From contig JAAYEJ010000075.1 in NCBI GenBank assembly GCA_012728835.1, forward strand, positions 1 through 51,809: 51,809 nucleotides of DNA, in the 5' to 3' direction. The notes beneath the pieces are model-generated. The model had not been told where the DNA came from, made no database searches, and saw only the letters and a list, made by a program, of their open reading frames with translations. Source of the stretch: Candidatus Brocadiaceae bacterium. Its GTDB lineage: Bacteria > Planctomycetota > Brocadiia > SM23-32. This document shows, piece by piece, positions 2,072 through 31,573 of the stretch; the stretch's first letter is position 1; each line of letters starts with the position of its first letter. The position numbers and the translations under genes were made by a program.

Positions 2072-3319
2072 TCAGCCGTCCGTGTGAGTGACGATGCCGC
2101 CGGCGACGACGTTGCGGCCCTTGACGAGGACGAACCGCCCGAGTTCCGGCACGTTGTAGAAGGACTCGACCACGACGGGGGAATCGGTTTCGATGACCAT
2201 CTCGCCCACCTCGGTCTCGCAGAGGCGGCGCTCGTCGGTCGGCAGGTGGGCCAGGTTGCCGCTGTCGACGCGTTCGGCCAGTTCGACCAGGCGGCAGGGC
2301 GTCTCCTGCGTGGCGCACCGGAGGGCGAGGTCCTGCGCGCCGTCGTCCATCTGGAGCGGCTCGGGGGCCAGCCAGAACACGCTGGCGCGCAGCCGTCGCG
2401 TCATCCCGGCCTGGTCGTCTTCCGGACAGCCGACCTGGCCGCGTTCGGGGGCCTTGCCGTCCAGGCGAAGCGCGACGCACTCTCCCGCCACGGCCTCCGC
2501 CATGTCCGGACGCATGAACTGGAGGACCTCCCGGACCGTCCGCACGTCGCCGCCGGGCAGGAACCGGATCTTCCGGTCCTTGTGCAGGCGGCCGCTCTCG
2601 ACGCGGCCGACGGCCACCCGCTCGCCCTCGTGCTCGTAGACGTCCTGGACAGGGAAGCGCAGCGGCTTGCGCGTGGCCGGCGGGATCTTGCGGAACCGGT
2701 CGAGCGCCTCCACCAGCGTGGGGCCTTCGTACCACGGCATGCGCTCGGAGCGCGTGGCAACGTTGTCTCCCACGTGCGCGCTGAGCGGCACCTCCATGGT
2801 GGCCCGGACGCCGAGGCGTTCGAGCCAGTCGTTCATGTCGCGGCGCACGCTCTCGAACCGCTCGCGGTCGTAGTCGACCAGGTCCATCTTGTTGTAGGCG
2901 ACGGTGACCTGTTCGAGGCCGAGCAGGCGGATGACATAGGCATGGCGCTTTGTCTGTTCCTGCACGCCTTCGGCGACGCTGCAGAGGAGCACGGCGGCCT
3001 CGGCCTGCGAGGCGCCCGTGATCATGTTCTTGATGAACTCCTTGTGGCCCGGCGCGTCGATGATGACGTAGTCGCGCGCGGCGGTCGAGAAGAACGTCTG
3101 GGCGGTGTCGATCGTGATGCCGCGCTCGCGCTCCTCGTGCAGGTGGTCCATGATGAAGCCGTACTCGAGCCGCTTGCCCTCGGCGCGTGCGGCGGCCTCG
3201 ATCTCCTGGATCTTGCCCTCGGGGAGCGATCCGGTGTCGTAGAGCAGGCGGCCGATGAGCGTTGACTTCCCGTGGTCAATGTGCCCGACCATCACGAACG
3301 ACAGACTTTCTTCGGCCAT
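2072..3319 (-). CDS. cysN: Sulfate adenylyltransferase subunit 1 (GTPase)
   Basis: Encodes 415 aa, the EF-Tu-like GTPase subunit of ATP sulfurylase, which couples GTP hydrolysis to formation of adenosine 5'-phosphosulfate from sulfate and ATP. G1 is GHIDHGKS (12-19), the switch I region is RGITID (66-71), G3 is DAPGH (88-92) and G4 is NKMD (143-146); two beta-barrel domains follow. There is no C-terminal APS kinase (CysC) domain, unlike the CysNC fusions. The ATG at 3319 is preceded by GAGG that overlaps the cysD stop region; the intergenic gap is 8 bp. Neither APS kinase nor APS reductase lies in this window, so assimilatory versus other use cannot be decided here. Confidence 0.95.
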   Translation of the reverse strand: MAEESLSFVMVGHIDHGKSTLIGRLLYDTGSLPEGKIQEIEAAARAEGKRLEYGFIMDHLHEERERGITIDTAQTFFSTAARDYVIIDAPGHKEFIKNMITGASQAEAAVLLCSVAEGVQEQTKRHAYVIRLLGLEQVTVAYNKMDLVDYDRERFESVRRDMNDWLERLGVRATMEVPLSAHVGDNVATRSERMPWYEGPTLVEALDRFRKIPPATRKPLRFPVQDVYEHEGERVAVGRVESGRLHKDRKIRFLPGGDVRTVREVLQFMRPDMAEAVAGECVALRLDGKAPERGQVGCPEDDQAGMTRRLRASVFWLAPEPLQMDDGAQDLALRCATQETPCRLVELAERVDSGNLAHLPTDERRLCETEVGEMVIETDSPVVVESFYNVPELGRFVLVKGRNVVAGGIVTHTDG

Positions 3320-6540: not shown

Positions 6541-7434
6541 TCAGTCGTCCTCGCCGGGCAGGAAGTCCGTCTTCCTGCGGGCCGGCGTGAGAGGTTCGAA
6601 GAGTTCCGTCGAGTGGATGCCCGTGGTCAGGTCGATGCTGAGCAGTCGTTTGCGGAGGTACTCGCTTCCGACGACGAGCGCGCGGACGCCGTTGACGCGG
6701 ACCTGCTCGGGCGCGTGCCGGTGGCCACAGAAGACGTAGCGGAGCTTGGGGAAGCCCTTGAGGAGTTCGCCGAGGCGTTCGGAGCCGAGGAAGGCGCGGC
6801 AGAACTCATAGGCGGTGCTGGACGGGCCGTGCATGAGGCTGCGGAAGGGCAGGGCGTGCAGCACGGCGAGGACGGTGTCCACCTCCGGCTCGACGGAGCG
6901 GTAGGCGGCGTCCATCGAGCGGACGCACTGGTCTGTGAACTCCTCGTCGGTCAGCTTCCAGGTGATGAAGCGGCCGTCGTTCCAGGTGCAGACGCCGGGG
7001 AGGCGTTTGCGTCGGTACTGCTCGAGCGGGATGCTCAGGTCGGGGCTGCGGAACGTGTAGTCGTACCATCCGATGCTTCCGATGATGCCCACGCCTCCCA
7101 TGCGGACGGGGCCCGTGTCGAGCATGTGGAAGCCGCGCTCGGCGGCAAGGGCGGGGAGCACCTCGCGGTACTTCGTCTCGCTGTTCGCGCCCGTCACCCA
7201 CAGGTCGTGGTTTCCGGGCACCAGGAGCTTTGTGCCGGGGAAATCGGCGAACAGCTCAAGACATGCGGCGAAGTTGTCACGGCCGACATCGGCCACGTCG
7301 CCGGCGATGGCGAAGGCGTCGGCGTCCGAGGTGCAGACGTACTCGGCGAGCTGGTGCGTGCAGTTGTCGCCGGCCGGGTAGAGGCCGAAGTGGAGGTCCG
7401 AGGTGACCAGCAGCCGTTGGGGGTCGCGGTCCAT
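6541..7434 (-). CDS. Calcineurin-like metallophosphoesterase
   Basis: Encodes 297 aa of the calcineurin-like phosphoesterase family, which uses a dinuclear metal centre to hydrolyse phosphomono- or diesters. All canonical blocks are visible: SDLHFG (12-17, D-x-H), GDVAD (45-49), GNHD (74-77), an internal His in VLHALPF, and GHRHAP near 230 (GHxH). No signal peptide or membrane segment, so cytosolic. Start ATG at 7434, 41 bp after the ROK-kinase gene in the same direction. Substrate cannot be deduced. Confidence 0.88.
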   Translation of the reverse strand: MDRDPQRLLVTSDLHFGLYPAGDNCTHQLAEYVCTSDADAFAIAGDVADVGRDNFAACLELFADFPGTKLLVPGNHDLWVTGANSETKYREVLPALAAERGFHMLDTGPVRMGGVGIIGSIGWYDYTFRSPDLSIPLEQYRRKRLPGVCTWNDGRFITWKLTDEEFTDQCVRSMDAAYRSVEPEVDTVLAVLHALPFRSLMHGPSSTAYEFCRAFLGSERLGELLKGFPKLRYVFCGHRHAPEQVRVNGVRALVVGSEYLRKRLLSIDLTTGIHSTELFEPLTPARRKTDFLPGEDD

Positions 7435-7475
7435 GTGCCCGTCCCGTGATCTGGAAGTCCGTTGAAGGAGCTTTC

Positions 7476-8429
7476 TTATACTTCCACAACGGGCGGCTGA
7501 GGTCCGCGGGGCCCGTGCGTGCCGGGGGGCCGGCCCGCGTCGGCCTTGCCGAAGACAAGGGCCGCCGCACCGATGACACCGGCCTGATCGCCCAGCGTGC
7601 CGGGCACGATGCGGACGGCCCGGCGGTTGACGGCGTTCGTGTACTTGGCGGCCTGATGGAGCATGGTCTCGCAGAACAGGTCCCAGGCTGCGGCCATTGA
7701 GCCGCCCAGCACGACCAGGTCGGGATCCAGGGCGTTGCACATCCACGCGATGGGCACGGCGAGGTCGGCGCCGAACTCTCGCCATGCCTCACGTGCGTCC
7801 GGGTCGCCTTCGCGGGCCAGCGCGGCCACCTGCTGCGCCGTGGCGACGCGCTCGGTCAGCTTCCTGTAGTTGCGGGCCAGTCCACGGCCCGACACCTTCT
7901 CCTCGATCTGGTCGCCCTGGTAGGGGGAGGCCCAGACCTCGGCGGCGGCGCCGCGGGGGCCATCGAAGAGCCGGCCGTCGAGCACGAGGAACCCGCCCAG
8001 CCCGGTGCCCAGCGTAAAGCCGCAGCAGACGCGCGCCCCGGCGCCCGCGCCGTAGAGCGCCTCGGCCAGGCCGAAGCAGTTCGCGTCGTTGTTGAGCACC
8101 ACGGGCCGGCCGATCGCCTCGCTGAGCCGGGCGACGATGGGGAACCCGTGGAGAGTCAGGAGGTTGTTGGTCTCCAGGATGACCCCCGCATCCATGTCGA
8201 GCGGGGCGGGCGAGCCCAGGCCGACGCCCTCCAGATCGTCGGGCCGGAGGCCGGCCAGGGCGAGGGCCTGCCGGACGGCGTCGGCCATGTCCGCCAGGAT
8301 GGCCTCCGCCTCGCGCTCGGGCCCGGTGGGCACGCGCAGGTGGGCCAGCAAGCGGCCGCCGGCGGTGACGATTCCGACGCCGATCTTGGTGCCGCCCAGG
8401 TCGACGCCGGCGGCGAGGGGCTCACTCAC
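7476..8429 (-). CDS. ROK-family sugar kinase lacking the zinc motif
   Basis: Encodes 317 aa of the ROK family (glucokinase/N-acetylhexosamine kinase and related repressors). ATP-phosphate loop DLGGTK is at 10-15, the catalytic base is D115 in LNNDANCFGLAEA, and GTGLGGF (141-147) and VLGGS are present. There is no N-terminal HTH, so an enzyme rather than a regulator. The usual CxCGxxGCxE zinc site and the preceding GEIGH histidine are missing: GPRGAAAEVWASPYQ leads straight into EEKVSGRGL (157-184). The GTG start overlaps the HPRT stop by 8 bp. The sugar is unknown; the missing motif makes a specific glucokinase call unsafe. Confidence 0.85.
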   Translation of the reverse strand: MSEPLAAGVDLGGTKIGVGIVTAGGRLLAHLRVPTGPEREAEAILADMADAVRQALALAGLRPDDLEGVGLGSPAPLDMDAGVILETNNLLTLHGFPIVARLSEAIGRPVVLNNDANCFGLAEALYGAGAGARVCCGFTLGTGLGGFLVLDGRLFDGPRGAAAEVWASPYQGDQIEEKVSGRGLARNYRKLTERVATAQQVAALAREGDPDAREAWREFGADLAVPIAWMCNALDPDLVVLGGSMAAAWDLFCETMLHQAAKYTNAVNRRAVRIVPGTLGDQAGVIGAAALVFGKADAGRPPGTHGPRGPQPPVVEV

Positions 8430-22216: not shown

Positions 22217-23419
22217 CTACGTCGGATACTCCGCGTTGATCCGCACGTATTCCCTGGTCAGGTCGCACGAGCGCACGCGGCCCCGGCCGAACCCTATGCC
22301 GAGGTTGATCCGCACCGCGACGGTGTCGGCGTGCATCGGGGCGCGGGCGTCGGCGCCGGTCGGCATGCCGTTGTGGAACACACAGACCGGCCCGATGTGC
22401 ACGGTGGTCGTGTGCGGCTGCACGGCCGCGCCCGAGTAGCCGATGGCGCAGACGATGCGGCCCCAGTTGGGGTCGCATCCGTAGACGGCGCACTTGACCA
22501 GTTGGGACTCGGCGACGGCGCGCGCCACGCGGTGGGCCGAGTCGGCGTCGGCGGCGCCCTCCACGATGACCTCGATGACCTTCGTGGCGCCCTCGCCGTC
22601 GCGCACGATCTGGAGCGCCAGGGAGTCCATGACGGCCAGCAGGGCCTGGCGGAACTCCGCCGCCCCGGGTCCGTCGGGCGTCACGTTGACGCCGGAGCGG
22701 CCACCGGCCAGCGCGATGACGGAGTCGTTTGTGCTCGAGTCGCCGTCCACCGTGATCCGGTTGAACGTCTGCCCGGCGGCCTCCCTCAGGAACTCGCGCA
22801 GGTCGCCGGGGGCCACCAGTGCGTCGGTGGTGACGAACGCCAGCATGGTGGCCATGTTCGGGGCGATCATGCCCGAGCCCTTGGCCATGCCGCCGACGTG
22901 GAAGGTGCGGCCGTCGACGGCGGAACGGACGGCGGCCGCCTTCGGGCGCGTGTCGGTGGTCATGATGGCGCGTTCGGCCGCCCGGGCGTGGGCCTCGCCC
23001 GTGCCGATGCGCAGGTGCGACTCGCGGAGGCCGGCCTCGATCTTGTCCATGGGCAGGGGATGGCCGATGATGCCGGTGGAGGCCACGCAGACGTCCTCGG
23101 GCGCGCAGCCGACGAGGTCGGCGATCAGTTCGGCGGTGCGCTGCACGTCGCGGTCGCCCTGCTCTCCGGTGCAGGCGTTGGCGTTGCCGCTGTTGACGGC
23201 GACGGCCCGCACGCGGGGCGAGGGCAGGTGCCGCCGGCACCACTGGACGGGGGCGGCGGCGAAGCGGTTGACGGTGAACAGGCCCGCCCCGGAGGTCGGC
23301 GCGTCGCAGACGACCAGGGCGACGTCGGGCTCTCCGGCGGCCTTCTTGAGGCCGCCGCGCGCGGCACCGACGGCGAAGCCGGCGGCGCTCAGGATGCTGC
23401 CATCGGGGATGATGTCCAC
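22217..23419 (-). CDS. argJ: Bifunctional glutamate N-acetyltransferase/amino-acid acetyltransferase
   Basis: Encodes 400 aa, the usual ArgJ length. It transfers the acetyl group from N2-acetylornithine to glutamate (and can use acetyl-CoA), closing the cyclic arginine pathway. The self-cleavage and nucleophile motif KGSGMIAPNMATMLAF contains the catalytic Thr that becomes the N-terminus of the beta chain; the oxyanion TGIIG and NSGNANACTG motifs and C-terminal DLTREYVRINAEYPT are conserved. The GTG start at 23419 is preceded by GGGAG 9 bp upstream. No other arginine genes lie in the window. Confidence 0.95.
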   Translation of the reverse strand: MDIIPDGSILSAAGFAVGAARGGLKKAAGEPDVALVVCDAPTSGAGLFTVNRFAAAPVQWCRRHLPSPRVRAVAVNSGNANACTGEQGDRDVQRTAELIADLVGCAPEDVCVASTGIIGHPLPMDKIEAGLRESHLRIGTGEAHARAAERAIMTTDTRPKAAAVRSAVDGRTFHVGGMAKGSGMIAPNMATMLAFVTTDALVAPGDLREFLREAAGQTFNRITVDGDSSTNDSVIALAGGRSGVNVTPDGPGAAEFRQALLAVMDSLALQIVRDGEGATKVIEVIVEGAADADSAHRVARAVAESQLVKCAVYGCDPNWGRIVCAIGYSGAAVQPHTTTVHIGPVCVFHNGMPTGADARAPMHADTVAVRINLGIGFGRGRVRSCDLTREYVRINAEYPT

Positions 23420-23477: not shown

Positions 23478-25667
23478 TTATGACTCCTGGGCGTGCTGCT
23501 GGCCCAGTTCGGCGTAGCGCACCAGATGATCCCGCGCGGCCTCCCAGCGGTCGAGGCGGCGGCCGAGCACCAGGCCGAGTTGCAGGTGCAGTTCGGCGTT
23601 CCAGGGATTGAGTTCCAGCGCCTTCTGCCAGAACTCGACGCATCGTTCGGCGTCGTCCCCGTCCAGGGCGAGGCGGCCGGCGGTCTCCAGCGCCTCCACG
23701 GAGTAGGGGTTTGCCGCCAGGGCGCGTTCGGCCTCCCGGACCGCCTCCTCGCGGTGGTTCCGGGTGTCCAGCGCGGAGGCCAGGGCCAGGAGGGCCGCGT
23801 CGCTGCGCGCGTCGTGCTCAAGGCCCGTGCGAGCGGCGGTCTCCGCCCGCGCGGGCTCGCCGGCGGCCAGGAACGCGCGGCTGAGGGTGGCGAACGACCG
23901 GGCGTCCGGACGGGACGATGCGGCGATCTGCGCGCTGGCCACCGCGTCCGACGCCCTGCCGGCGGCCATGTGGACCTCCGCCAGGGCCAGCCGGGCATCG
24001 GCCTCGTGGTCCGGCTGGACGGTGGACGCCTCCAGGACCCGGACGGCCTCCTCGAACCTGTCCATCCGCCCCAGGAGCCGGCCCAGCGCGATCCGTGCGG
24101 GCGCGTACTCGGGCTGTTCGGCCAGCAGGGCCTCCAGGATCGTGCGGGCCTGCGCATGCTCCCGCCGGGCGGCCAGCGTGTTGGCCAGTTGCACCGATGC
24201 GTAGGGGAAGCGGCTGTTGAGGGCTGCGGCGTCCTCGAAGGCCCGGCGCGCATCCTCGGTGCGCCACATCTGGAGCGCCGCATCGCCGTAGGCGGCCAGC
24301 ACGCCGGGGTCGTGCGGGTGTGTCTGGGCGGCCCTGCGCAGGACGTCCAGGGCGTCCTCGTGCCGTCCCTGCAGGCGCAGGATGGCGGCCAGTTGGCGGT
24401 TGATCGCGATGCTGCCGCTGGTGATTGCGAATGCCTCCCTCAGGGCTCTGAGGGCCTCCTCGTCGCGCCCCAGGGCGCGCAGAGCCATGGCCAGTTCCGC
24501 CCAGGTTTCGGGCCGGCCGTCGCCGGCGCCCAGGGCAAGGCGGTAGCAGGCCACGGCCTCGGCCAGTCGGCCGCGGTTGCGATGAAAGCGCGCCAGATGG
24601 ACGTGCACGAAGGGGCAGGCCGGCAGCAGGGCGGCCGCGCGCGTCAGGCGGGACTGGGCGGCCTCTTCGTTGCCCGATTCGAGTGCCATCAGGGCTTCGG
24701 CGTAGTGGTAGAGGCCCTCGCGGGTCATGTCGCTGAGCCGTGCCTGCTCCAGCAGGAGCACCGCGTTGTCCTGACGGCCCCTGCGCAGGTTCAGCCAGGC
24801 CAGCAGGGCGCACACGGGGCCGCTCTCCGGGTGGTCCCTGCGGGCGGCCTCGGCGCGGGCGATGGCGTCGTCCGGCCGGCCGGCCATGTGCAGGGCGAAG
24901 ACCCCGCGCATGAAGCAGGCGTTCGGCCCGGCCGGCGCCAGGTCAAGGAACCGGTCGGCGGCCACGTCCCACAGGCCGGCCTCGAGGAAGAACAGGGCTT
25001 CGGCGATCGCCACGGGATCGCGCGGCGGTTCGGGTGCGGGGGCGCCGGGGCCGAAGGCGGCCTCCAGCAGCCTCAGCCAGTCCGCGTCGGCGGCGTCCAG
25101 TTCCTGCCGCCGTCGGCTGGAGAGGTCCGCCTGCTCCTCGGAGAGCTGCACTGCCACGCGCAGGCTGTGCGCGACACGGCCCGTCGCCGCGTCATAGACG
25201 TCCACGCCCACCTGGCGTGCGGCCGCCGCTCCGGCGACGGCCACCCGGATCAGGACCGTGGCCGACCGGTTGTGAAGGGCGCGGACGATGGGGGCCGGCA
25301 GCGGGCCGGGCCGGGACCCCGCAGTCCGCACGTGGGCGGCGAACAGGGCCGTCTCCACGCCGTGCGCGGTCAGGCAGCCGGCCAGCACGCGCGTCGCATA
25401 GGCGTCCAGGAGCGGGGCGTCCGGCGCATCCAGCAGCATCACCGCCTCCGGGCGCCGGGGAAATGCCTCCATGGCGGCGGCGGCCGCCCCGTGCAGGGCC
25501 TCGATCAGGGACGCGACCGTCGGTGCGGTCTCGGGCGCCTCGGCGGGTCCGTCCCCGGCGGCGCTCACGGCGCTCGCCGCCAGCAGGGCGGCCATGCACA
25601 CGCTCAGCCACGCCGCGTGCAGCGGCCGGCGCGGCCGTTCCGATCTGCGATGTCCCTCTCCGTCCAC
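23478..25667 (-). CDS. Exported tetratricopeptide-repeat protein
   Basis: Encodes 729 aa. An N-terminal segment (about 18-37, AAWLSVCMAALLAASAVSAA) is a signal peptide or anchor. Residues about 50-200 form an alpha/beta region with similarity to periplasmic lipoprotein-associated domains (MLLDAPDAPLLDAYATRVLAG, VLIRVAVAGAAA). From about 225 to the end come many TPR hairpins, for example ARFHRNRGRLAEAVACYRLA and ALRALGRDEEALRALREAF. TPR arrays mediate protein-protein contact; a partner is not evident. GTG start with GAGGAG 6 bp upstream. The 58-bp gap suggests argJ could be co-transcribed. Confidence 0.8.
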   Translation of the reverse strand: MDGEGHRRSERPRRPLHAAWLSVCMAALLAASAVSAAGDGPAEAPETAPTVASLIEALHGAAAAAMEAFPRRPEAVMLLDAPDAPLLDAYATRVLAGCLTAHGVETALFAAHVRTAGSRPGPLPAPIVRALHNRSATVLIRVAVAGAAAARQVGVDVYDAATGRVAHSLRVAVQLSEEQADLSSRRRQELDAADADWLRLLEAAFGPGAPAPEPPRDPVAIAEALFFLEAGLWDVAADRFLDLAPAGPNACFMRGVFALHMAGRPDDAIARAEAARRDHPESGPVCALLAWLNLRRGRQDNAVLLLEQARLSDMTREGLYHYAEALMALESGNEEAAQSRLTRAAALLPACPFVHVHLARFHRNRGRLAEAVACYRLALGAGDGRPETWAELAMALRALGRDEEALRALREAFAITSGSIAINRQLAAILRLQGRHEDALDVLRRAAQTHPHDPGVLAAYGDAALQMWRTEDARRAFEDAAALNSRFPYASVQLANTLAARREHAQARTILEALLAEQPEYAPARIALGRLLGRMDRFEEAVRVLEASTVQPDHEADARLALAEVHMAAGRASDAVASAQIAASSRPDARSFATLSRAFLAAGEPARAETAARTGLEHDARSDAALLALASALDTRNHREEAVREAERALAANPYSVEALETAGRLALDGDDAERCVEFWQKALELNPWNAELHLQLGLVLGRRLDRWEAARDHLVRYAELGQQHAQES

Positions 25668-25792: not shown

Positions 25793-27550
25793 ATGTCCAC
25801 CCGGTCGTTTCGCATCATCACCGCCCGCACGGCGGGGTTCTGTATGGGCGTGCGCCGCGCCGTCGGCATGGCGCTGGGAGCGGCCGACGAGCCGGGACAC
25901 CCGCGGCCCATCCGCACGCACGGCCCCCTGATCCACAACCGCCAGGTTCTGCAGGTGCTGGAGCGGCGCGACGTACGGACGCTGGCGGACGGCGAGCGTC
26001 CGGAGGGCGGCACGGTCCTGGTCCGGGCGCACGGGCTGGCGCGCGAGGAGCGCGAGGCGCTGGACGCCGGCCCGTGCGCGGTGCTGGACGCCACCTGTCC
26101 GCACGTGCACCGTCTGCAGCGGATCGTTCAGGAGCAGGCCGCGCGCGGGTACGCCTGCATCGTCGTCGGCGACGCCGGCCACGCCGAGGTCACCGGCGTG
26201 CTCAGCTACGCCGGCCCGGCCGGCTACATCGTCTCCGGCCCGGACGACGTCGACGCGCTGCCGCCGCTGGACAAGGTCATCGTGGTGGCGCAGACGACGC
26301 AGGACGAGGACCTCTTCCGCCGCACCGCCGCGCGCGCGCAGGAGCGCTTTGCCGAGTGCGTCACCTTCGACACGGTCTGCCGTTCCACCGAACGGCGCCA
26401 GACCGAGGCGCGCGAACTGGCCGGCCGCGTGGACGCCATGGTCGTGGTCGGCGGCTACCACAGCGCGAACACCCGGCGGCTCGCCGACATCAGCCGGGCC
26501 ACCGGCACGCCGACCTTCCACGTGGAGACCGAACGCGAACTGGACCTGGAGGCGGTGCTGCAGTACGGCACCGTGGGGCTGACGGCCGGCGCCTCGACCC
26601 CCAACTGGATGCTGCGCCGCGTCGTGCGGCGGCTGGAGGACGAGCACCTGCGGCGCACGGCCCTGCTGCGCTGCCTGATGCGCACGTTTGCCCGGGGGCT
26701 CGTGAACTCCAACCTGTTCGCCGCCGGCGGCACCGCCGCGCTCACGTACGCCTGCGCCCTGCTGCTGCCGGTGCGGCCTGTGCAACTGGGGGTCTGCATG
26801 GCGGTCTCGTTCTTCTTCGTGCTGAGCCAGCACCTTCTGAACCAGCACGGCCGGCGCGAATCGCTGTACCTGAGCGAGCCGGACCGCGCGGACTTCTTCA
26901 TGGCCAACGAGGGGCCCCTGTTCGCGCTGGCCGTGGCGTCGTCGCTGCTGGCCATCTTCCTGGCATCGTTCCTGGGGTGGTGGCCGTTCGGGCTGGTGGC
27001 GGCGGGCACGGCGGGCGGGCTGGCCTACCGATGGCCGCTCCCCAGGGTGCTCGGGGAGCGCCTGCGGCTGCGCAGCCTGGAGCACGTGCCGGGGTCCAAG
27101 GAGCTGTTCGTGGGGCTGGCCTGGGGCACGCTGGCGGGGCTGGTGCCCGCCCTGGCCGCAGGCGGCGGGCCCGGGCAGTGGGCGGCCGCCGCCGTGGCCT
27201 TCGCCATCGCGTTTCTGCTGGCCTATCAGCGCAGCCTGGCGCTGGACCTGCGCGACGTCGAGGGCGATCAGCTCGTGGGCCGGGAGACGCTGGCCGGCAT
27301 CCTGGGCGGACGGGCCGCCCGGCGGGTCCTCTGGGCGCTGGCCGTGCTCCTGGGGGTGGTGCTGGCGCTGGCATGCCTGGCCGGATGGACCACCGGGTTC
27401 TGCCTGCCCCTGCTGTTCTGCGTGCCGTATGTGCCGGCCACCTACGTGATGCTGCGTCGCTGGCACAGGCGGGAGGCGGAGCCGGCCGAGATCCTCGTGG
27501 ACGCCGGATTCTACCTGCTCGGGGCCGTCGGACTGGTCTTCGGCGCGTGA
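25793..27550 (+). CDS. ispH: Fusion: HMBPP reductase (IspH/LytB) + UbiA-type prenyltransferase
   Basis: Encodes 585 aa. Residues 1-285 are a complete IspH, the [4Fe-4S] enzyme that makes IPP and DMAPP in the last MEP-pathway step: cluster ligands C17 (GFCMGV), C102 (DATCP) and C196 (DTVC), substrate residues H48 (PLIHN), H130/E132 (GHAEVTG), and VGLTAGASTPNW. Residues 295-585 are a polytopic UbiA-like domain; the second Asp motif is good (LALDLRDVEGDQLVGRETL, 482-500) but the first, normally NDxxDxxxD, reads LNQHGRRES (349-357). The fusion joins production of prenyl units to a membrane prenyl-transfer-like domain. It may serve quinone, lipid or haem modification; the weak first motif leaves catalysis uncertain. 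Confidence 0.88.
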   Translation: MSTRSFRIITARTAGFCMGVRRAVGMALGAADEPGHPRPIRTHGPLIHNRQVLQVLERRDVRTLADGERPEGGTVLVRAHGLAREEREALDAGPCAVLDATCPHVHRLQRIVQEQAARGYACIVVGDAGHAEVTGVLSYAGPAGYIVSGPDDVDALPPLDKVIVVAQTTQDEDLFRRTAARAQERFAECVTFDTVCRSTERRQTEARELAGRVDAMVVVGGYHSANTRRLADISRATGTPTFHVETERELDLEAVLQYGTVGLTAGASTPNWMLRRVVRRLEDEHLRRTALLRCLMRTFARGLVNSNLFAAGGTAALTYACALLLPVRPVQLGVCMAVSFFFVLSQHLLNQHGRRESLYLSEPDRADFFMANEGPLFALAVASSLLAIFLASFLGWWPFGLVAAGTAGGLAYRWPLPRVLGERLRLRSLEHVPGSKELFVGLAWGTLAGLVPALAAGGGPGQWAAAAVAFAIAFLLAYQRSLALDLRDVEGDQLVGRETLAGILGGRAARRVLWALAVLLGVVLALACLAGWTTGFCLPLLFCVPYVPATYVMLRRWHRREAEPAEILVDAGFYLLGAVGLVFGA

Positions 27551-27704: not shown

Positions 27705-28979
27705 ATGGAGCACATCGGCCGGTTCGAACTGGGTGCGGAGATCGACAGAGGCCCTCTGAGCGTGACGTACGAGGCGGAGGACAGCGGGACGCCATGCGTC
27801 CTCCAGGTGATCGCCGAGGACGCCGTGCCGGTCGAGCCGGGGCTGCGGGCAGGGCTGGTCAAGGCGCTTGAGGGCCTCAAGGCGATCGAGCATCCCTCCA
27901 TTGTGCGCGTGCTGGATGCCGGCGAGGCCGACGGCCGGGTGTTCATCGCCTCGGAACGGATGCGGTGTGCAACCCTTCAGGAGACCATCGCCGAGGCCGA
28001 GCGCCTGGAGGAGCAGCAGGTTGTCCTGTTCGTCCGCCAGATGGCGCAGGCCCTCGACAAGGCCCATGGCGCCGGCTACTGCCACGGCGACCTGAACGCC
28101 CGCAACGTCTTCGTCGTCTCGCCCGAGAAGGTAAAGCTGTCCGCATTCGCCGTCAAGGCCCTGCTGGAGGAGCCCCCGGACGCGTCGGCACTGGACGCGG
28201 AGGCGGGAGAGGGAGAGGGGGGCGAGGACTGGCTGACGGCCGAGGACCTGCTGCGCAGCAAGAGCAGACGGCTGCTGGTCGACAGGGTCCAGCAGGACCT
28301 CGTCGGCCTGGCCGTGCTGATGCTGAACATGCTGGGCTACGAGGTGCCCGAGCGGGATGAGGACGAGGCCCTGGTGGCCTACCGGGAGTACATCCTGGAC
28401 CAGTATTCCAGCGTGCTGACCGATCCGGCGACCGGCGTCGGCGCGCGGGCGGGCGAGGTGGCCCGGCGCCTGCTGACGACCGGCGGCTTCGAGAGTCCGG
28501 GCGAGGTCGTCGTGGAGCTGGCCAGCGCGATGCTGGTGGGGCGGGGCGTCGGGCGCAGCCGGCCGGTGGAGGACGAGGCGTCGCCGGAGCCGGAGGAGCC
28601 GGCGGCCGCCGAGGCCCCCGCAGCGGAGGGGGGGCTGGCCCCCCTGGAGTTCAAGGGCGATTCGCGCACGGCGGACTTCACTCCGTTTTTCGTCTGGACC
28701 GACCGCCGCGGCGGCCGGTTCCTGATCATCCACGACGGCGAACGGCTGGCCATCGGGCGGGATCCGGACGTCAGTGACTGGACCCTGATGGACCCGGCGA
28801 TCTCGCGGCGTCACTGCTACCTGAGCAAGGAGAACGGCGTTCTGCGGGTCCAGGATCTGGGCAGCAGCAACGGCACGTTCGTGAACGGCGAGCGCGTGGA
28901 AGAGGCCGAGGTGGGCCCGAGCGACGAACTGCGTGTGGGGACGACGCGGTTCCTCATGGGGTTGGCTGACAGGGAGTAG
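27705..28979 (+). CDS. Pseudokinase with C-terminal FHA domain
   Basis: Encodes 424 aa. Residues 6-290 have a Ser/Thr-kinase fold, but key residues are lost: the ATP-anchoring Lys is Gln34 (CVLQVI), the catalytic-loop reads HGDLNARN (127-134, Asp kept, Lys lost) and the DFG metal site is AFA (147-149). A Glu/Ala/Pro linker (about 290-325) leads to a canonical FHA domain (335-424) with IGRDPDV, SRRHCYL and SSNGTFVNG, which binds phosphothreonine. Probably a scaffold or regulator that brings partners to a phosphorylated target. GGGGA precedes the ATG. First gene of the cassette. Confidence 0.85.
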   Translation: MEHIGRFELGAEIDRGPLSVTYEAEDSGTPCVLQVIAEDAVPVEPGLRAGLVKALEGLKAIEHPSIVRVLDAGEADGRVFIASERMRCATLQETIAEAERLEEQQVVLFVRQMAQALDKAHGAGYCHGDLNARNVFVVSPEKVKLSAFAVKALLEEPPDASALDAEAGEGEGGEDWLTAEDLLRSKSRRLLVDRVQQDLVGLAVLMLNMLGYEVPERDEDEALVAYREYILDQYSSVLTDPATGVGARAGEVARRLLTTGGFESPGEVVVELASAMLVGRGVGRSRPVEDEASPEPEEPAAAEAPAAEGGLAPLEFKGDSRTADFTPFFVWTDRRGGRFLIIHDGERLAIGRDPDVSDWTLMDPAISRRHCYLSKENGVLRVQDLGSSNGTFVNGERVEEAEVGPSDELRVGTTRFLMGLADRE

Positions 28980-29092
28980 CGCGGGCCTGCGTCCGGCGAC
29001 TCGGGGTGCGCCTCGAGCCGCCACGGTGGCGACCGCCTCCGCGCACCGGGTGCGGAAGGCGGCTGATTGCACTGGTCCGGCGCAGAGAGACA

Positions 29093-29965
29093 ATGGCAAA
29101 GCTCCTGAAGCGGCTTTTTGCCTTCCGCAAGGCCCCGTACGGCGGCTTCGTGCCGGAAGAGAAGATCGCCCACGGGGGGATGAGCACGATCTGGCGGGCA
29201 CGGCATCCGCAGACGGGGACCGCCTTCGCCCTGAAGATCCTCACTCCCGAGTCCGCCGAGCTGCAGGACTCCTTCGGCAAGGTCTTCGCCGCCGAAGAGG
29301 GCAAGACGGCCCTGGGCCTGAACCACCCGAACGTCATCAAGACCTACGAGTACGGTCGACAGGGGCGCAACGAGTACTACATCGTGATGGAGTACGTCGA
29401 TGGGCCGAACCTGGAGACGCTGATCCTCCTGCACTCGCCCCGCGTCCGCGAGAACCGCTTCGACCTGCTGCTGCAGGTCGGCTCCGGGCTGGCCTACATC
29501 CACGAACAGGGCCTGATCCACCGGGACTTCTGCCCCAAGAACGTGCTGTACGGCAGCGACGGCGTCGCCAAGATCGTGGACTTCGGCCTGAGCATCCCGG
29601 CGGGGGTCAGGAGCCCGTTGGCGGAGGCGCGGGCCGGGACGGCCAGCTACATGGCGCCGGAGCAGATCCGCAGCCAGCCGCTGGACGAGCGTGCCGACGT
29701 CTACGCGTTCGGCCTCTCCGCGTTCGAGATCCTGACGTGCCGGCGTCCCTTCCCGGTCAGTTCGGATCGCAGCCGGCGCATGCAGAACCGGCTCAACACC
29801 GAGCCGCTCAAGCTCCGGCAGGTCGACCCCGGGCTGTCCGAACGGCTCGAGGCCATCATCGGGAAATGCATTGAAAAGGACCGGGAGATGCGCTATAAGT
29901 CCATGCTGGAGGTCATGAGACATCTGCGGGCCGCGGTGGAAGCCGCGTCATCCGGCAGCGGCTGA
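29093..29965 (+). CDS. Serine/threonine protein kinase, apparently active
   Basis: Encodes 290 aa, a kinase domain almost alone. All catalytic features are intact: glycine loop AHGGMSTIW, ATP Lys48 (ALKIL), catalytic loop HRDFCPKN (143-150), DFG (163-165) and APE (188-190). The N-terminus is basic (AKLLKRLFAFRK) and there is no membrane helix, so cytosolic. The start at ATG 29093 leaves a 113-bp gap to the pseudokinase gene. It is the only cassette member with a full active site, so it is the likely enzyme for phosphorylating the neighbouring FHA proteins or their partners. Confidence 0.9.
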   Translation: MAKLLKRLFAFRKAPYGGFVPEEKIAHGGMSTIWRARHPQTGTAFALKILTPESAELQDSFGKVFAAEEGKTALGLNHPNVIKTYEYGRQGRNEYYIVMEYVDGPNLETLILLHSPRVRENRFDLLLQVGSGLAYIHEQGLIHRDFCPKNVLYGSDGVAKIVDFGLSIPAGVRSPLAEARAGTASYMAPEQIRSQPLDERADVYAFGLSAFEILTCRRPFPVSSDRSRRMQNRLNTEPLKLRQVDPGLSERLEAIIGKCIEKDREMRYKSMLEVMRHLRAAVEAASSGSG

Positions 29966-30000
29966 TCACTTACACGCGCGTTGCAGGAAGGGAAGGCCCT

Positions 30001-31227
30001 ATGAACCCGCGCCTCCGTGTTGACGTTGGCCGACAGGTGGGCTTCGAGTACGAGATCCCGCCCAAGGAGGAGACCGAGGCCGTCTGGCTGGGCCGGGGGG
30101 GGTTCTGCCAGATCCGTCTGGCGGACAACCAGCTCTCCCGCCGCCACTCCCAGTTCTCCTTCTGCGACGGCGTGCTCTATGTCGAGGACCTGGGGAGCAA
30201 GAACGGGACGCTCGTCAACGGCGAGCCCGTGCGCGACCGCCTCGCCATCAAGGACGGCGACCGCATCACCGTCGGCAGCCATGAACTGGTCGTCATCCAC
30301 CCCACCCCGACCAGCGACCGCGCCGGCGTTCTGGCGCCCCTCGGCCAGCGCGAGGAGGAGGAGAACGCCTTCCAGGAGCTTGCGCATCAGGTCGGGTCGG
30401 ACTTCGGCGGCTACGTCGTGGAGAAGGTCATCTTCAACGGCACCGCCTCGGTCGTCTTCCGCGCCCGCCAGGTCCAGACGGGCACGCCGGCCGCCGTCAA
30501 GGTGCTCAAGCGCCTGAAGCGGGTCACCGTGGAGGACCAGAACCGGTTCCTGCGAGGGGCCAGGCACAGCGCCGCGCTGAGGCACGAGAACTTCGTGCGC
30601 GTCTACAAGGGCGGGCGCGTGCACGAGTGGTTCTACATCGCCATGGAATACGCGCCGGGCCGCAACCTGGTGGAGATCGTCGAACACAAGGGCGGGCCGC
30701 TCGAGGTGAAGACGGCCCTGCGGATCGCCGACCAGGTCCTGGATGCCCTCCAGTACGCCTACGAGCAGGACATCGTGTTCCGGGCCGTCCGCCCCGACAA
30801 CATCATCATCACCGAGGGCATGACGGTGAAGCTGACGGACTTCGACCTGGTCAAGCCGCTGGCCGGCCGCCAGGACGCCCAGGTCACCCGCGTCATGGAC
30901 GGCAGCCTCAAGGTCGATCCGGCGTTCGCGGCCCCGGAACTGATCGCCTACCCCGTCGTGGCCGACCAGAAGGCCGACGTCTTCGGCGCCGGCGCCGTGC
31001 TCTACTACATGCTCTGCGCACGGCCGCCGTTCGGCGGCGCGCTGCCTGCCGACAAGCTGACGAGCGCCTTCGACCGCGTCGCCGTGCCGCCCCGCGAGAT
31101 CAACCCCGAGGTGCCCGAGGCCGTCTGCGAGGTGCTCAAGCAGGCCATGTCGGACTACGATCGCTACGCCACGCCCGGTGCCATGCGCGAGGCCCTGGCG
31201 CAGGCCGCCGCCGAGGTCCGGCACTGA
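30001..31227 (+). CDS. FHA domain-pseudokinase protein
   Basis: Encodes 408 aa. The FHA domain comes first (about 25-100: LGRGG, LSRRHSQF, GSKNGTLVNG), the reverse of the gene at 27705. Residues 135-405 are a kinase fold that keeps the ATP-binding Lys167 (AAVKVLK) and APE (311-313) but has FRAVRPDN (260-267) where HRDLKPxN should be, replacing the catalytic Asp with Ala, and DFD (280-282) for DFG. It probably binds ATP without phosphotransfer and acts as a regulator or platform. 35 bp downstream of the active kinase. Confidence 0.87.
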   Translation: MNPRLRVDVGRQVGFEYEIPPKEETEAVWLGRGGFCQIRLADNQLSRRHSQFSFCDGVLYVEDLGSKNGTLVNGEPVRDRLAIKDGDRITVGSHELVVIHPTPTSDRAGVLAPLGQREEEENAFQELAHQVGSDFGGYVVEKVIFNGTASVVFRARQVQTGTPAAVKVLKRLKRVTVEDQNRFLRGARHSAALRHENFVRVYKGGRVHEWFYIAMEYAPGRNLVEIVEHKGGPLEVKTALRIADQVLDALQYAYEQDIVFRAVRPDNIIITEGMTVKLTDFDLVKPLAGRQDAQVTRVMDGSLKVDPAFAAPELIAYPVVADQKADVFGAGAVLYYMLCARPPFGGALPADKLTSAFDRVAVPPREINPEVPEAVCEVLKQAMSDYDRYATPGAMREALAQAAAEVRH

Positions 31228-31255
31228 GGCGGCGGGACGATCGGAGGCCCCTCGC

Positions 31256-31573
31256 ATGAGCGCATACGTGCAGATCACCGAGGGGGAACGTGCCGGCTGG
31301 AGCCTTGCGCTGGACCGCATCGGGTCCTACACCATCGGGCGCCGCTCCGCCAGCGACCTCTCGATCGTCGAGAAGGCCGTCTCCCGCACGCACTGCCGGG
31401 TCGAGTTCGACGGCAGCTTCTACTGGCTCGTCGACTGCGACAGCCACAACGGCACGTTCGTCAACGAGCGCCGCGTCACCCGCAGCATGCTCTACGACGG
31501 CGACATGATCCGCGTCGGCCACGTCAGTCTCCGCTTCGTCATGCCCGGGCAGACCGCCGGTTCCCACGGCTGA
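31256..31573 (+). CDS. Single-domain FHA protein
   Basis: Encodes 105 aa, essentially one FHA domain: IGRRSASDLSI (27-37), SRTHCRV and HNGTFVNERRV are the phosphopeptide-contact loops. A phosphothreonine reader with no effector domain of its own, likely an adaptor or competitor for the two FHA-pseudokinases. Strong GGAGG 8 bp before the ATG. Last gene of the cassette, 28 bp after the FHA-pseudokinase stop. Confidence 0.88.
   Translation: MSAYVQITEGERAGWSLALDRIGSYTIGRRSASDLSIVEKAVSRTHCRVEFDGSFYWLVDCDSHNGTFVNERRVTRSMLYDGDMIRVGHVSLRFVMPGQTAGSHG

Follow-up and report, generated by a model that had tools for sequence, protein, structure and literature searches.

Why should the terminal enzyme of the MEP pathway be joined, in a single chain, to a membrane-embedded domain with a prenyltransferase fold? 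The question is raised by a gene in the window, a 51,809-nucleotide stretch of DNA from a Candidatus Brocadiaceae bacterium. The open reading frame at 25793-27550 (forward strand, as are all features below unless stated) begins with ATG and comprises 585 codons plus a stop, with no internal stops; it encodes an IspH-UbiA fusion whose layout is matched in relatives of the same class and in the loci named below. The preliminary description of this DNA had placed an in-frame fusion at these coordinates; they are exact, and both Pfam domains lie in the one stop-free frame. The IspH (LYTB, HMBPP reductase) domain, identified by Pfam and Foldseek, occupies residues 8-282 (25814-26638), and the UbiA-fold domain, with nine membrane-length helices, occupies residues 290-585 (26660-27547) as defined by Pfam, the secondary structure of the model and Foldseek. 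The UbiA domain abuts IspH without a gap. At the junction (residues 285-291, 26645-26665), the AlphaFold2 model shows a single residue between the last IspH helix (271-289) and the helix that opens the UbiA part (291-305). The Pfam UbiA match itself covers residues 377-561 (E 2.4e-13; 50.4 bits, the cut-off being 34.2), so that the N-terminal stretch of the domain falls outside it.

The IspH half is a complete IspH domain. Pfam LYTB aligns over profile positions 1-267 of 267 (E 1.7e-81, 273.9 bits against a cut-off of 24.5), TIGR00216 scores 249 against a cut-off of 187.85, and Foldseek pairs the half with E. coli IspH at TMt 0.84 and 32% identity. Its top-scoring model is NCBIfam NF000907 (280.7 bits, far under the family cut-off of 624), which represents the IspH-ribosomal protein S1 fusions; there the partner consists of S1 repeats, whereas here it is a UbiA fold. 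A full HMBPP reductase with three cluster cysteines had been proposed from the first reading, and Cys17 (25841-25843), Cys102 (26096-26098) and Cys196 (26378-26380), the first, second and third cluster ligands, are indeed invariant in 65 aligned fusions, as are H48, H80, H130, E132, T169, S224, N226 and S268. The cluster-ligand and active-site roles of these residues are presumed from E. coli IspH. We found no second IspH in the window's own genome (3.07 Mb in 82 contigs, 96.9% complete), in which IspG and three polyprenyl synthase matches are present.

The fusion type is not new, since Rao et al. (2015) described 47 IspH-UbiA fusions and assigned their UbiA part to PT_UbiA_5 (PMC4746011); the novelty implied by the preliminary description therefore falls away. 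All of those fusions were ascribed to sulfate-reducing anaerobes; the authors noted that the DXXXD repeat occurs twice and that UbiA/MenA is also encoded separately (PMC4746011). The window protein is a member of this published family, sharing its domain order (IspH N-terminal, UbiA fold C-terminal), its length and the presence of separate UbiA/MenA in the genome. What is new is a wider host range and the degeneracy of the first motif as a family trait.

Unlike the sulfate reducers of the earlier survey, the hosts recorded here are mainly Planctomycetota of the anammox class, together with other phyla. IspH was found in 65 of 75 genomes of this class, and in those 65 we found no complete stand-alone copy; the short IspH frames (G002, G047, G054 and a second match in G058) represent fragments, and several visibly sit at the end of a contig. 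The UbiA part was present in 69 of the 98 genomes searched (the window's own counted), nearly always in open frames of 570-760 aa, and closed genomes such as that of Candidatus Brocadia pituitae (AP021856.1, L075) share the layout. The fusion is the standard form of IspH in the anammox class; a search of the accessible literature for a link between the fusion and anammox found none. In Planctomycetota outside the class IspH is mostly stand-alone, with fusions in G082, G084, G085 and G097. Two genomes of family f3 within the class (G010 and G012) are 92-94% complete yet contain neither IspG nor IspH, and this family may for that reason use another isoprenoid route.

When 84,980 species genomes were scanned more widely with one peptide pattern, taking just the UbiA part as query, 292 relatives emerged, of which the best 80 were taken. 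Every one of the 78 that could be evaluated was fused to IspH (L109 and L127, near contig or locus ends, were left unjudged), and among these hits the UbiA subfamily is not met apart from IspH. By record title, the best 80 of 292 include 35 Planctomycetota (among them the anammox genera Brocadia, Kuenenia, Jettenia, Scalindua, Loosdrechtia and Anammoxibacter, and others), about 25 'Deltaproteobacteria' and Desulfobacterales, 6 Fibrobacterota, 3 Zixibacteria, 3 Nitrospirota and singletons, and the host range given by Rao et al. is now too narrow. In a tree of IspH halves comprising the fused sequences and 14 stand-alone sequences from Planctomycetota only, forcing the fused set together scored better than the free search (AU p 0.74), a result compatible with a single origin of the IspH halves of the fusions.

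The function of the UbiA half can be approached through its motifs. Foldseek matches it to ApUbiA and AfUbiA at TMt 0.58-0.73 (0.73 for ApUbiA, 4od4), and it shares with these proteins and with chlorophyll synthase the nine-helix fold and homologous positions for motifs 1 and 2; unlike them, it has lost the motif 1 acids and carries an Arg480 specific to the fused family, at a site where ChlG has Gly. Alignment to the PDB chlorophyll synthase, in which QTLNDFYDRDIDAINEPYR stands opposite the family's hvlnqlanreaaalnepsr, shows both motifs to be homologous. The first motif (residues 350-365, NQHGRRESLYLSEPDR, 26840-26887) reads N350-Q-H-G-R354-R-E-S-L358 in the window protein, against the canonical N-D-x-x-D-x-x-x-D: the Asn is kept and three Asp are gone, with R354 and L358 in place of Asp. 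The second motif region, R480...D485..D488...D492 (27230-27268), contains an intact D485-L-R-D488-V-E-G-D492, the DxxxD running from D488 to D492. A degenerate first and an intact second motif are what the preliminary description had read from this one protein, and inspection of the fused homologues shows the degeneracy to be a property of the family.

Across 93 aligned fusions, N350 is retained in 82, Asp is found at position 351 in none, at position 354 (AfUbiA D72) in 17 and at position 358 (AfUbiA D76) in 22, and the state of position 354 switches at least seven times on the tree. The absence of Asp at 351 is not diagnostic by itself, because MqnP-like proteins of the class have N-R-x-x-D-x-x-x-D, a form missed by the canonical-motif pattern; our judgement of motif 1 therefore rests on the D72 and D76 equivalents. 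N350, D354 and D358 occur together in just two rows (L037 and L110) and N350 with D354 in 12, and ordinary prenyltransferases may therefore exist among the members. Most aligned members, Desulfobacterales included, have a degenerate first motif, and since it is complete in so few the 'two DXXXD repeats' of Rao et al. are best taken as a loose description that is no bar to membership; as a defining feature of the family they are doubtful. R480 and D492 (AfUbiA D202) are invariant (93/93), W444 is present in 92 and D488 in 80, and E498, T499 and G505 are nearly invariant. In the PGSK motif (residues 433-436, 27089-27100) S435 is kept in 89 fusions and residue 436 is Lys or Arg in all 93; Tyr412 (27026-27028), the probable counterpart of AfUbiA Y139, whose role we take from PMC4106721, is Tyr in 89.

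Mutagenesis of AfUbiA bears on this pattern. There the Mg that clasps the diphosphate is held by N68 and D72; GPP no longer binds to the N68A or D72A protein, MenA is inactive when it carries the equivalent changes, and binding suffers less from D198A and D202A (PMC4106721). Because the D202 equivalent and a new Arg are kept and the D72 equivalent is repeatedly dropped, ordinary prenyl transfer is unlikely to be the need that the family shares. Both the conservation in the 93 fusions and the AfUbiA and MenA mutants agree with the suggestion in the preliminary description that the UbiA half may bind (di)phosphate but not carry out normal transfer.

Both halves are maintained. In 16 close pairs from other genomes dN/dS (NG86) is 0.04-0.16 for the UbiA part and similar, 0.02-0.14, for the IspH part, and purifying selection acts on both in these relatives; the value of 0.29 for the UbiA part of the window protein and L052 comes from a pair too diverged to inform. 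AlphaFold2 modelling of the window protein with 65 fusions gave pLDDT 91.7 and pTM 0.87; when a Desulfobacterales member was placed first the values were 89.1 and 0.83. Judged from pTM alone, this suggests that the two halves are held in a fixed arrangement. Both Asp motifs of AfUbiA, like its N terminus, face the cytoplasm, so IspH would be expected to share the membrane side with the mouth of the pocket.

We propose, with moderate confidence, that IspH is active and docked at the membrane in this protein, and that the UbiA half has retained a phosphate/prenyl pocket for positioning or control and not for standard transfer. We favor this reading because the IspH active site is complete and is the sole copy, because the fusion is conserved with both halves under selection in relatives, and because the acids of Mg site 1 are lost while D492 and the family-specific R480 are strictly kept; it is weakened because Rao et al. 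could not obtain an intact IspH-UbiA protein (PMC4746011). In this proposal the IspH half would be an active and essential HMBPP reductase. The C-terminal domain would fix IspH rigidly at the cytoplasmic face of the membrane, and the old UbiA pocket may still bind a phosphate- or prenyl-bearing ligand, either the IspH product or a downstream prenyl diphosphate. R480, whose place in the pocket is a guess, and K436 could stand in, with the second motif, for the lost first Mg site. Ligand binding might then serve to bring IspH close to the prenyl chemistry of the membrane or to modulate IspH output, and ordinary aromatic prenyl transfer would be left to separate UbiA-family genes. Through the fusion, IspH would be integral to the membrane across anammox bacteria and several anaerobic phyla. 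Should the pocket serve to regulate or channel the pathway, bacterial isoprenoid synthesis would have a hard-wired control point here. The invariant R480 and D492, together with the lost motif 1, offer a direct mutational handle on the role of the UbiA domain.

This reading and its rivals overlap, and the likelihoods we attach to them are not meant to total one. The best placed of the alternatives, which Rao et al. (2015) put forward as a 'Rosetta stone', treats the UbiA half as a genuine, if atypical, membrane prenyltransferase fed by the IspH half; it would move a prenyl group of C5 or longer by means of motif 2, N350, Y412, K436 and R480. We regard it as possible, though rather unlikely. 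The fold is that of AfUbiA, a DMAPP binder, D492, Y412 and a basic residue at 436 are kept almost universally, and 7 of 52 loci (in Planctomycetota, Desulfobacterales and Nitrospirota) have a gene for a polyprenyl synthase no more than about 6 kb away. These points have to be weighed against the D72 equivalent, missing in 76 of 93 fusions including the window's, whose mutation destroys GPP binding in AfUbiA and function in MenA (PMC4106721), and against the lack of acceptor-pathway genes that consistently adjoin the fusion. Canonical UbiA-family genes are, moreover, present separately in most members of the anammox class, and their first motifs retain the acids (NRLVDTSYD in MqnP-like, NDYFDYLSGVD in MenA-like and NQIYDLEID in ChlG-like proteins, labels that are a reading of the motifs). 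When the window's genome was checked for stand-alone ispH and ubiA, as the first description had advised, the one further UbiA-family protein found was divergent, with an intact first motif, NDLTDSAED (G000:C34, about 2226-3233). This C34 gene (L035) directly follows a radical-SAM-like protein and just precedes a uroporphyrinogen-decarboxylase-like protein, neighbours that were judged by eye.

It is also conceivable, as a special case of the preferred reading, that the UbiA half works as a product sensor within the chain, where a bound prenyl diphosphate alters IspH activity or stability, a covalent bacterial counterpart of UBIAD1; we consider this unlikely. UBIAD1 senses GGPP and binds HMG-CoA reductase (PMC4374513, PMC9314443), a precedent in which a protein of the UbiA fold pairs with an enzyme from the early part of isoprenoid synthesis, and the HMGCR-UBIAD1 complex is among the weaker Foldseek matches (E 5e-3). 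The conserved pocket residues, the loss of metal site 1 and a partner that is always the terminal MEP enzyme fit a sensor as well. UBIAD1, however, is a working enzyme, not a fused pseudoenzyme, that associates non-covalently and acts through ER-associated degradation, whereas the bacterial protein is a covalent fusion. The full form of the idea, a pseudo-prenyltransferase that would sense a prenyl diphosphate made further down the pathway and control the last MEP enzyme in one chain, fixed across the anammox class, would be a little less probable again.

A plain membrane anchor we consider improbable. Loss of the motif 1 acids would be expected of one, and the UbiA part has diverged further than the IspH part (59% against 67.7% for the window and L052); an anchor has no need, however, of an R480 and D492 invariant over many phyla, of a W444, E498, T499 and G505 nearly so, or of the low dN/dS seen in relatives. 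That the gene arose through misassembly or a spurious frameshift, or has decayed alongside a true ispH, can be dismissed, for although the genome is a draft and relative G072 carries the gene split across two frames inside the UbiA part, this is the genome's only IspH, its frame is open, the layout is identical in independent assemblies and closed genomes, relatives show purifying selection, and the junction, examined at residues 285-295 for a frame break, has none and is in frame in more than 60 other genomes. The split in G072 (L162, G072:C7:12000-14500), into two overlapping frames of 435 and 192 aa, is a sequencing error or a recent frameshift. Delivery of electrons to IspH from a quinol through the UbiA pocket was also considered and set aside, menaquinol being too weak a reductant for IspH.

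The genes around the fusion complete the description of the locus. Upstream, on the opposite strand, lie a TPR protein gene (23478-25667) and ArgJ (22217-23410). Downstream, the strand that carries the fusion continues with a run of four Ser/Thr kinase and FHA genes (27705-31573), made up of kinase+FHA (27705-28979), kinase (29006-29965), FHA+kinase (30001-31227) and FHA (31178-31573). These neighbours say little about the fusion, because they are not common to the wider family, and comparison of the fusion loci found no conserved neighbour common across phyla that could serve as a functional clue. In 14 Brocadia-like loci of the anammox class, a gene for a DUF502 membrane protein follows the fusion, as at 6960-7580 (+) in L056.
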